The position numbers were made by a program, and so were the translations under genes. The notes beneath the pieces were generated by a model. It had not been told where the DNA came from. It worked only from the letters and a program-made list of their open reading frames with translations, and ran no database searches. 64,000 bases of DNA from Candidatus Hydrogenedentota bacterium (GTDB lineage: Bacteria; Hydrogenedentota; Hydrogenedentia; Hydrogenedentales; JAJRTN01): NCBI GenBank assembly GCA_024278275.1, contig JAJRTN010000042.1, positions 46,261 to 110,260 of the forward strand, written 5' to 3'. Shown here piece after piece: positions 7,522 through 44,342 of the stretch. Numbering within the stretch: the stretch's first letter is position 1; the number at the start of each line of letters is the position of its first letter.

Positions 7522-7620
7522 TGCGGTACTTGGCGTGCGGTGTTTCCTGTTGCGCAACGACGTGGCGGGACGCCCGCAACATGCATTCCCGCGGAGGACC
7601 GTGGGGATGAGAAACGCCCA

Positions 7621-7876
7621 TATTTCAAGGGTGTTATGTCGTTACCATAAGAACACCAATACGCTCTTATGTGGCACAGCCGCCCTCGGCTGTGGGGCCG
7701 ACAGGTCTCAATTAGGCTTAAACGTTTACGCGGGCTTAAGGTCTGTAGCCTGGAGAAGGCACAATAGCCGCAGGAACAGAGACGGAACCCTGCGGGTTCC
7801 ACAACCGAGGGCGGCTGTGCCACATAAGAAATGGTCCATCGAAACGCACCTCAGAAACACCTGTGAACGGTTACAG
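7621..7876. repeat. Family A palindromic repeat, copy 1 (core 7667-7827 plus flanks)
   Basis: TTATGTGGCACAGCCGCCCTCGGCTGTGG at left and inverted CACAACCGAGGGCGGCTGTGCCACATAA at right; flanks match the copy at 44091-44340. Confidence 0.85.
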
Positions 7877-10056: not shown

Positions 10057-11361
10057 TTACAGGCTCCACGGCGCACGCATTTTGCGCGAGATCATGGCGT
10101 TGGCCTCCGGGTCGTCGATGAAGCGTTCCGTCTCGGGGTTCCATCGTACCTTGCGGCCCAGCCGCAGGGCGATGTTCATCAGGTGACAGGCGGTCGCGGT
10201 ACGGTGGCCAATCTCGGCGGGAGTCACAGTGGTCTCCCGCGACCGCACGCAATCGAGGAAATCCTGCCGATGGTTTCGACTCGTGTGGACGTGGTATTCA
10301 TCGGGACCGATGACGGAATCGAGTATGTTCGCGGGGTCCGAGGTAAACTCGGTCCGGGTGACGAAGATGGAGCCTTCGTCACCGATGAACTTGATATACG
10401 GCGGCGGGGCGTGATTCACCATGTGAACCGTAATACCGTTGGAATAGCGCAGTTCGGCGTCCCAGGTTATGGCCTGATCCACGATACCCCATTCAGGATA
10501 GGTGGCCGTGCCTTCAATTTCCACCGGGCCCGAATGGTCGGCATCGAGAGCCCACTGGGCGATATCGAGATGGTGGCTGCCCCAACTGGCGATACGTCCG
10601 CCGCCATAGGCGCCAATGGACAGCCATGCGCGGCGGCCGATACACCGCTCCGGACAGTAGGGTGCCAGCGGGGCCTGGCCCAGCCACAGGTCGTAGTCCA
10701 TCCAGTCCGGCACCGGTGTCTCATTGCATCCACGCGGCCCATCACCGGGGTGAATACCGATCTCCACGTGTTTAAGCGTGCCGATGCGCCCGTTGCGAAC
10801 CAGTTCCACCGCGCGGGGAAACCCGTAGGCCGACCGCTGCAAGGTGCCGTGCTGGAAGATCGCGCCCGACCGTTTCTGTTCGTCCGCCAGCGCCCGTCCC
10901 TCCTCGATGGTGAGGGTCATGGGCTTTTCGCAATAGACATCCTTGCCCGCGCGCATGGCGGCGAGCGAGGGGAGGGTGTGCCAGTGATCCGGCGTCGCCA
11001 CGAACAGGGCATCCACATCCTTGTTGGCGATGAGGTCGCGGAAATCATTGTAACCCGCGCAACCGGTGTAGCTGCCCTGGTCCGACTGAGACGTGTAGCC
11101 TTCGTCGACTTGCTTACGAAGTGTTTCACGTTTCAGCCCGTTCACATCGCATACCGCCACCACCTGAACGCCCCGGTTCCCGACGAGCTGCCTGGCATGC
11201 CCCGTGTTCATTGAACCGCAGCCCACGATACCGATGCCGATGCGTTCGGAGGGTGCCATGGCCCCATTGAGGCCCAGCGCCTGTCCCGGCACAATAAGCG
11301 GCGCGACCGCCGCTGTTGTCGCCGTGGCGAGAAAATGTCTGCGCGTGAACTTGTATCCCAT
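10057..11361 (-). CDS. Gfo/Idh/MocA family oxidoreductase, Tat-exported
   Basis: MGYKFTRRHFLATATTAAVAPLIVPG; GIGIVGCGSMNTGHARQL; DALFVATPDHWH; CEKPMT. Confidence 0.92.
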   Translation of the reverse strand: MGYKFTRRHFLATATTAAVAPLIVPGQALGLNGAMAPSERIGIGIVGCGSMNTGHARQLVGNRGVQVVAVCDVNGLKRETLRKQVDEGYTSQSDQGSYTGCAGYNDFRDLIANKDVDALFVATPDHWHTLPSLAAMRAGKDVYCEKPMTLTIEEGRALADEQKRSGAIFQHGTLQRSAYGFPRAVELVRNGRIGTLKHVEIGIHPGDGPRGCNETPVPDWMDYDLWLGQAPLAPYCPERCIGRRAWLSIGAYGGGRIASWGSHHLDIAQWALDADHSGPVEIEGTATYPEWGIVDQAITWDAELRYSNGITVHMVNHAPPPYIKFIGDEGSIFVTRTEFTSDPANILDSVIGPDEYHVHTSRNHRQDFLDCVRSRETTVTPAEIGHRTATACHLMNIALRLGRKVRWNPETERFIDDPEANAMISRKMRAPWSL

Positions 11362-13917: not shown

Positions 13918-14104
13918 GATGATTCCCGGTCAGGGCAAGCGGGACGGGGCTGTTCAACGGATACATCCGCCAAGCCGCCACCCGGCCCGTTAAACTTGGG
14001 TGCTCTCTCTTCATTCCGCCTGGTATCACAACAGGCGCATGGCGCGACCGTCCGGCCGCAACCAAAGGAAGCGAAAAACATTCACTGCACAGTGGTTTAA
14101 TTGA

Positions 14105-14340
14105 ATGTAGCACAGCCGCCCCCGGCGGTGGAACCCGCAAGGGTTCCATCCCTGCTTTCGCGCAATATCGTAGCCGTTCACGCCTTTCATAAACCGTCAT
14201 TGCGAGGGAACCCAAGCCACCGTGGGGCTTGCCAACCCCACAGCCCCCGGTTCGGGCCGAGTACGGCCCCCAGGCGACTGTGCTCCATATAGAGACAATC
14301 CATCGAAAAACACCTCAAAGGGGCCCGTGAATGGGTACAG
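14105..14340. repeat. Family A palindromic repeat, copy 2 (mosaic, contains a half family B element)
   Basis: GCACAGCCGCCCCCGGCGGTGGAACCCGCAAGGGTTCCA...GTCATTGCGAGGGAACC...CCACAGCCCCCGGTTCGGGCCGAGTACGGCCCCCAGGCGACTGTGC; right flank AATCCATCGAAAAACACCTCAAAGGGGCCCGTGAATGGGTACA. Confidence 0.75.
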
Positions 14341-20900: not shown

Positions 20901-22193
20901 ATGCGACCCTTCTCCCGGCGTGATTTCATGGCGGCTTCCGCCCTGGCCATGGCGGCCATGCCCGCAATGGCCCAAAAGACGACCGTGGCCCCCAGCGAAA
21001 AAGTGCGCGTGGGCCTCATCGGTTGCGGCGGCATGGGCATCGGCGACCTCGATTGTTTCTTCCGCAACCCCGAGGTGGATTGCCCGGTTGTTTGCGACAT
21101 CGACGACGCGCACCTGGCCAAGGGTGTCGAACTCGTTGAAGCGCGCCGGGGCCATCGTCCCGACACGGTGAAGGACTTCCGCCGTGTCATTGACCGGGAC
21201 GACGTGGACGTGGTGCTCGTGGCGACGCCGGACCACTGGCACGCCCTGCCCACCATCCAGGCCTGCGACGCGGGCAAGGATGTCTACGTGGAAAAGCCCC
21301 TGGCCAAGAGCATCGGCGAGGGACGCGCCATGCTCAATGCCGTCCAGCGGAACGGCAGCGTGGTGCAGATGGGAACCCAGTGGCGCAGCGGCGATCATTA
21401 CCGGGAGGCCATCGAGTTCGTCCACTCGGGGCGGCTTGGCCGGATTCGCCAGGTGCGCGCCTGGGCCTATCTCGACTGGGTGGGCGGCATCGGCAGTCCG
21501 CCCGACGGTCCGCCCCCCGCCGGGGTGGACTACGACATGTGGCTCGGTCCCGCGCCCAAACGCCCCTTCAATCCCAACCGCTTTCATTTTAATTTCCGGT
21601 GGTTCTGGGACTATGCCGGGGGGCTGATGACCGACTGGGGCGTTCACCTGCTCAACATCTGCCTGTGGGGCATGGGGCCGGAATGGCCTGATCGCGTGGT
21701 CAGCTACGGCGGCAAACTCGTTATTGATGACAACACGGAAACCCCCGACACACAAACCACGCTCTACAAGTTTCCCGGCTACAACCTTATCTTCGAGCAC
21801 CAGTTGAAGAGTGGACTTGGCCCGAACGGCCGCCCTCACGGCATGCAATTCACGGGAATGAACGGCACCCTGACCATCGACCAGGGGGGATGGGAGGTGG
21901 TCCCCGAGCCGAAAAAGAAAGATCTCATGCCCCCCATCAAGAAACCCGCCGGACGTGACGCACGCCCCGCCCACGTCCGCAACTTCCTCGACTGCGTGAA
22001 GTCGCGCGAGGCCCCCGTGGAGAACCTGGAGTTGGGCCACTTCGTGTCCGCCGTGGCTCACCTGGGCAACATCGCCTTCCGGTCAGGCAGCGAAATAACA
22101 TGGGACGCGGGAAAAGAGACCATACAGGGCCCCCCTGAGGCCAAGACCCTCATCACCACGCCCTATCGCGCACCGTGGAAGCTGCCGGTATAA
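20901..22193 (+). CDS. Gfo/Idh/MocA family oxidoreductase, Tat-exported
   Basis: MRPFSRRDFMAASALAMAAMPAMAQ; VRVGLIGCGGMGIGDL; DVVLVATPDHWHALPTIQACDAGKDVYVEKPLAKSIGEG. Confidence 0.93.
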   Translation: MRPFSRRDFMAASALAMAAMPAMAQKTTVAPSEKVRVGLIGCGGMGIGDLDCFFRNPEVDCPVVCDIDDAHLAKGVELVEARRGHRPDTVKDFRRVIDRDDVDVVLVATPDHWHALPTIQACDAGKDVYVEKPLAKSIGEGRAMLNAVQRNGSVVQMGTQWRSGDHYREAIEFVHSGRLGRIRQVRAWAYLDWVGGIGSPPDGPPPAGVDYDMWLGPAPKRPFNPNRFHFNFRWFWDYAGGLMTDWGVHLLNICLWGMGPEWPDRVVSYGGKLVIDDNTETPDTQTTLYKFPGYNLIFEHQLKSGLGPNGRPHGMQFTGMNGTLTIDQGGWEVVPEPKKKDLMPPIKKPAGRDARPAHVRNFLDCVKSREAPVENLELGHFVSAVAHLGNIAFRSGSEITWDAGKETIQGPPEAKTLITTPYRAPWKLPV

Positions 22194-39512: not shown

Positions 39513-39612
39513 CCCGCGAACGCGGGGAAGAGGGGTTATAAGGGTGGGCCTTGGCCCACCATGGCCCCTTTTCGAGGGGAGACTGTTTCGTCGTCAGGGT
39601 TTCCGTCTTTTC

Positions 39613-39772
39613 TTATGTGGCACAACCGCCCTCGGCTGTGGCCGACAGGCCCCATTCCACCGGGAATAGAATACGTCTTGGCCTGGTGAAACGCTTGTAA
39701 TTGGAGACCTTACGGTCTCCACAGCCCCCGGTCCGGGCCGAGTACGGCCCACAGGGGGCGGCTGTGCCACAT
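39613..39772. repeat. Family A palindromic repeat, copy 3
   Basis: TTATGTGGCACAACCGCCCTCGGCTGTGGCCGACAGG ... GGAGACCTTACGGTCTCCACAGCCCCCGG ... GGGGGCGGCTGTGCCACAT. Confidence 0.8.
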
Positions 39773-43896: not shown

Positions 43897-44090
43897 GACA
43901 TCTTTCCTCGGTGGATTTGTACGTTGCCGGATTATACCTGTTTGAGGGGGTGAGCAACACTGGCGCGCTCATCCCCATCTTCCCCCCTGTATTTTCCCTG
44001 CGGCGTTCCCTATCGTCGCCCGGCCGGGTACGGGAAAGCTTCCGGTCAACGTTCGAAATAACGTAACCGTTTACGAGGAGGAATACCTAT

Positions 44091-44340
44091 TTTCAGGGGT
44101 GTCGCCTCGTTACCGCAAGAACACCAACACGATCTTATGTGGCACAGCCGCCCTCGGCTGTGGAACCCGCAGGGTTCCAGCTTCGTTTCCGCGGGTATCG
44201 GCCCTCTCCAAGCAACAAACCCTTGATTCGCGTAATCGTTCGAGCCCAATTGGGGCCTATCGGCCCCACAGCCGAGGGCGGCTGTGCCACATAGGAAATA
44301 GTGCATCGAAACACACTTTACAGGGGGCCGTGAATGGTTT
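44091..44340. repeat. Family A palindromic repeat, copy 4 (core 44135-44293, core inverted relative to copy 1)
   Basis: Left/right flanks in the same orientation as copy 1; core reads GGAACCCGCAGGGTTCC first, the reverse of copy 1. Confidence 0.85.
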
Positions 44341-44342
44341 CA

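Follow-up and report, generated by a model that had tools for sequence, protein, structure and literature searches.

Composite repeats in the window

The stretch of DNA analyzed here (the window; 64,000 nucleotides from a Hydrogenedentota bacterium) carries four copies of a composite repeat, all of which lie between predicted genes, copy 1 between the ends of two convergent ones (Table 1). An earlier note had placed two of them at 7621-7876 and 44091-44340 and had claimed that their outer flanks share one orientation while the core between the flanks is reversed. Comparison of the repeats within the window bore out both points and, to within a few bases, the coordinates. Thus, the left flanks (7623-7705 and 44091-44173) and the right flanks (7799-7875 and 44266-44342) form direct repeats (84% and 79%, respectively), and the interiors form two inverted repeats (7665-7760 with 44201-44296, 81%; 7757-7829 with 44133-44205, 85%). 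With copy 1 as a query against the genome, the minus-strand match was to the core of copy 4 (about 165 bp; E = 4e-42), which aligns with that of copy 1 only in reverse, whereas both flanks of copy 4 gave plus-strand matches (left, E = 2e-19; right, E = 8e-13). Judged by these alignments, the similarity of the two copies is far above chance. They carry the same type of arm pair, designated L and R; the L arm of copy 4 reaches a GTAACCGTTCACG-like end at 44063, slightly beyond the bounds first noted, and the R arm of copy 1 reaches 7874.

Two other repeats were seen in the window. One, at 7583-7612 and also at L042, is a third hairpin repeat (of the CATTCCCACGGAGGACCGTGGGAACGAG type) that abuts L arms and recurs across the genome. 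The other is a 158-nt inverted repeat pair (10892-11049 and 21171-21328) with 71% complementarity, probably representing related coding sequences.

Table 1. Parts of the four composite repeat copies, in window positions
Feature	Positions	Strand	Remarks
Copy 1 L arm	7623..7670	+	distal GTAACCGTTCACG end replaced by another repeat
Copy 1 left REP hairpin	7671..7694	+	5' GTGG tag and CACAGCCG-CCCT-CGGCTGTG
Copy 1 subterminal hairpin alpha (GGGGCCGACAGGTCTC)	7694..7709	+	adjoins L arm
Copy 1 directional spacer	7710..7783	+	reads alpha to beta
Copy 1 subterminal hairpin beta (GGAACCCTGCGGGTTCC)	7784..7800	+	adjoins R arm
Copy 1 right REP hairpin	7800..7823	-	inverted
Copy 1 R arm	7824..7874	+	ends TGTGAACGGTTAC
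Copy 2	14038..14337	.	Y arm, REP, and beta end; another repeat within the interior; then module-C REP and R arm
Copy 3	39540..39772	+	P arm, REP, alpha-to-beta core, module-C REP
Copy 4 L arm	44063..44138	+	starts GTAACCGTTTACG
Copy 4 left REP hairpin	44139..44162	+
Copy 4 hairpin beta	44162..44178	-	flipped, adjoins L arm
Copy 4 spacer	44179..44251	-	inverted relative to copy 1
Copy 4 hairpin alpha	44252..44267	-	flipped, adjoins R arm
Copy 4 right REP hairpin	44267..44290	-	inverted
Copy 4 R arm	44291..44341	+

The core and the composites that carry it

The census of the genome, a 5.35-Mb draft in 200 contigs that is 96% complete, was drawn from searches plus fetched stretches of the contigs, with loci numbered L001 onward. 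Each end of the core is a 24-nt unit, in which GTGG is followed by CACAGCCG-CCCT-CGGCTGTG; the unit at the far end is inverted. A strict, strand-specific pattern for this unit had 51 matches in the genome versus none for a reversed-pattern control, and about 30 distinct inverted pairs were readable. In an intact pair, two inverted 24-nt hairpins enclose a directional spacer of about 105 nt, the exact inverted repeat around it being about 29 nt. Within the pair lie two unlike hairpins, alpha (GGGGCCGACAGGCCCC) and beta (GGAACCCTGCGGGTTCC), and the spacer between them has a clear direction. As single strands, the cores of copies 1 and 4 fold far better than shuffled sequences (z = -9.1 and -9.6). 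The unit is thus a short, tagged, GC-rich palindrome in many copies, as REPs are, with GTGG as a variant of the GTAG-type tetranucleotide, and two such REPs stand inverted around a spacer; by this anatomy we recognize the core as a REPIN-like element, laid out as REPINs are. Flanks of unrelated sequence carry cores as well.

Two variants of the unit were noted alongside. Module C (GGCCGTACTCGGCCCGAACCGGGGG) is an extended REP variant that lengthens one REP of many elements, forms its own hairpin, and can occupy either end (L003, L004, L007, L009, L010, L014-L016, L038, and window 39700-39772). A solo 28-bp palindrome (GTGGCACAGCCG-CCCT-CGGCTGTGCCAC) without a core is found at L008 (C163:3370-3530), where it sits between intact L and R arms, and at L059 (C178:2906-2933); it could be the product of a deletion between two hairpins or an empty state.

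Besides the L/R composite, two more composites were recovered, one with arms X and Y and one with arms P and Q. Several L/R or R/R copies have GTAACCGTTCACG and its complement as termini and lie between 8-bp target duplications, which match at 8/8 positions in L005, at 7/8 in L002 and L003, and at 6/8 in L008 (= L077); about 1 in 10,000 shuffles gave as high a total over all pairs scanned (p about 1e-4). Copy 4 (L006) matches at only 2/8 and so has no target duplication. Terminal inverted repeats and a target duplication of fixed length are the marks of a MITE, and their presence on the outer L/R composite implies that its arms and core transpose together; it moves as a unit, in MITE-like fashion. 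The ends start with GTAA, a feature of IS66 ends, and the 8-bp target duplications are likewise like those of IS66-family MITE ends. Two IS66 elements make 8-bp repeats (PMC3281130). By analogy, the L/R composite may be given an IS66-family label, which is tentative because no IS66 transposase (PF03050) was matched in the genome.

The P arm is also found in many copies without a core, as a separate hairpin-pair element. This second hairpin-pair family, in which GGTGGGCC hairpins surround a directional spacer ending in GTCTT, has dozens of copies (e.g., L230, L240-L245, L249, L251, L256, and window 39540-39616); the P composites carry the GTGG REP core where this family has its right hairpin. 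Arms are shuffled across families, with P joined to X in L230, Y to R in L236, and R to R in L005. We also observed that in L221 (C82:11785-11932) GTGCCAC alone joins X and Y arms, with no REP pair, and that L267:1393-1481 holds an element of 89 nt, possibly a separate small MITE, whose ends are of the GTAACC type and whose target duplication matches at 7/8 positions.

Orientation of cores within arms

The earlier note had proposed tabulating core against flank orientation throughout the genome. In our automatic scoring each REP was classed by its outer arm and its inner end, and unambiguous cases were counted. The L arm adjoined alpha four times and beta once (direct reading of L002, whose L side fell outside the position filter, adds one alpha), and the R arm adjoined beta six times and alpha twice (the R arm of L014 had a weak score and was accepted by eye). 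For the X arm there were four loci with alpha and two with beta, L012 being listed twice in this scoring for its two REPs; the Y arm gave five beta and one alpha, and the P arm four alpha and one beta. Hence all of the scored arms (L, R, X, Y, and P) occur with both core ends.

Where both arms are retained, the two orientations stand at 5:1 for L/R, 3:1 for X/Y, and 1:1 for P/Q. The flip in L/R separates L006 (44063-44341) from L001-L004 and L014, and that in X/Y separates L010 from L007, L015, and L038. In P/Q, the order is P-alpha-beta-Q in L035 but P-beta-alpha-Q in L052; the two loci share the P arm and, across the core from it, CTCAATTGCTAAGCGACTAA (the Q match being read by eye), and their cores are 92% identical. 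L009 (X arm) and L039 (R arm) are single-armed flips. Flipped copies are few in number, and both orientations occur within the same arms in three families. We read the elements as a mosaic whose interior turned around several times between arms that stayed in place, the flips being differences of history among dispersed copies within a single assembled genome. Assembly error is an unlikely cause of all of them, given that the exact inverted repeat is only about 29 nt and that the flip is seen in three families.

We then consider how cores came to face both ways. If REPIN cores had entered pre-existing arms separately, in either orientation and mobilized in trans by a REP-associated tyrosine transposase (RAYT) or a similar enzyme, then core kinship would not be expected to track the arms, and it does track them. 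The X/Y cores are 82 to 95% identical to each other (mean, 90%), whereas their identity to L/R cores averages 75% and does not exceed 83%, and X/Y pairs of opposite orientation are 86 to 95% identical versus 82 to 93% for pairs of the same orientation, so that the grouping of cores follows arm family and not orientation. Within L/R, the L arm and the core diverge together (r = 0.86 between their distances, a value that ranked first among 720 permutations; the flipped copy is part of this set). Several observations fit such insertions: the cores in unrelated flanks, the arms without an intact core (L008 and L221), the many REP-less copies of the P element, and six Y1_Tnp matches in the genome; a RAYT acting in trans is possible. 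The solo palindromes are equally explicable as deletions, however, and the fetched flanks of all six Y1_Tnp loci yielded no good match to the GTGG hairpin, and linkage of a RAYT to the repeats was rejected. We consider independent insertion unlikely. Near one of the Y1_Tnp genes (L063) is an open frame in which, on inspection by eye, we saw a likeness to group II intron reverse transcriptases, a candidate assignment.

The correlation between arm and core is not uniform: it is weaker for the R arm (r = 0.45, p = 0.06) and absent for the X arm of X/Y (r = -0.33), and the L006 core is not resolved inside the L/R clade. These facts, together with the missing target duplication of L006, leave room for exchange between copies, in which gene conversion or crossover with a dispersed copy swapped in an inverted core, the hairpins serving as homology. 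Exchange of this kind, to judge from the mixed arms of L230 and L236, certainly shuffles arms elsewhere, and R with R in L005 adds to the same picture; moreover, the X arm of L010 is about 79% like the others while its Y arm and core are about 90 to 95% like those of L007. Yet keeping both arms requires two exchanges, and the correlation of L arm and core in L/R speaks against frequent replacement. Exchange as the cause of the flips seems to us distinctly improbable.

Possible routes of inversion and known repeats

The earlier note had read the arrangement as an inversion between inverted repeats, whether site specific or driven by recombination. Inversion is still the best reading and recurs in two further composite families, but the site-specific part is not supported. 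Known invertons have a similar layout, with inverted repeats flanking a short segment, and the roughly 29-nt inverted repeats around about 105 bp resemble them; the genome also has five tyrosine recombinase matches, none known to be linked to the repeats. Several results speak against a phase-variable inverton with its own site-specific recombinase. No serine recombinase was matched in the 96%-complete genome; a search of the copy 1 region gave no promoter-like or terminator site that could act as a switch, and the genes on either side of copy 1 are convergent; and the breakpoints vary among flipped copies, module C traveling with beta in L010 but remaining at the end opposite X in L009. A dedicated invertase is thus unsupported, and a switched inverton is very improbable. 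The difference in module C between the two flips is harder to reconcile with a fixed crossover site than with recombination, or template switching, between hairpins.

The reading that we favor, and think probable, is that the core inverted in place, by recombination or replication template switching between its inverted hairpins, after the composites had formed and multiplied. The REPIN-like core sits in larger composites, one of which, L/R, moves as a MITE with GTAACCGTTCACG ends and 8-bp target duplications; the core of individual copies would later have flipped in place. As the hairpins are symmetric, such a flip would leave the arms intact. In-place flipping is consistent with the similarity of opposite-facing pairs, which equals that of same-facing ones, with the co-divergence of L arm and core, and with the strong single-strand folding. 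As for the route, which is most likely one of the two just named, the two REPs within elements are not homogenized (22.8 within versus 22.8 shuffled, p = 0.48), which counts against template switching because that process would tend to homogenize the arms.

Template switching between short inverted repeats inverts spacers in yeast (PMC8604942), and the likeness is that the spacer is reversed, recurrently, with unchanged flanks. The yeast cases, in contrast, concern coding DNA and spacers of a few bases, versus about 105 bp and no homogenized arms here.

Among known repeats, REPINs were described as REP doublets forming hairpins in Pseudomonas fluorescens SBW25 (PMC3116915). Like these, the present elements are multicopy inverted REP pairs with a spacer, are extragenic in the window, and fold into a long hairpin; unlike them, they have a longer directional spacer, two subterminal hairpins, both orientations inside larger repeats, and no linked transposase that we could find. 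A 5' tag followed by a palindrome is shared with the GTAG-tagged REP families, in which, according to the available part of their account (PMC3733652), units in opposite orientation are common and most GTAG-20 repeats of Opitutus terrae have a GTGG tag. The stem and loop found here (CACAGCCG-CCCT-CGGCTGTG) matched no family listed in that part, nor does it describe interior orientation flips. The BIMEs of Escherichia coli combine inversely oriented REPs with linker motifs in a mosaic (PMC8266576), as do our elements; in the latter, however, the pair stands between recognizable arms and its interior faces opposite ways in different copies. We class the elements as a REPIN/BIME mosaic. The exact 24-mer was present, among the matches listed, in Planctomycetota, Acidobacteria, Verrucomicrobia, and Hydrogenedentota assemblies; the other searched genomes of the order (none of the same family among them) shared only the 24- to 27-nt hairpin and did not yield the full core.

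The maintenance and rearrangement of REPs and REPINs are matters of continuing debate. Symmetric REPIN hairpins usually hide flips, which the directional spacer and recognizable arms make countable here, and the genome offers a natural setting for testing how short inverted repeats about 100 bp apart recombine. DNA between the inverted hairpins probably flips now and then. A bolder proposal, which we offer as speculation and think rather unlikely, is that REPIN interiors flip repeatedly in living populations, driven by their hairpins and free of any recombinase, with arm shuffling as a further outcome. If that were true, dispersed REPINs would be a standing source of local inversions in these bacteria.
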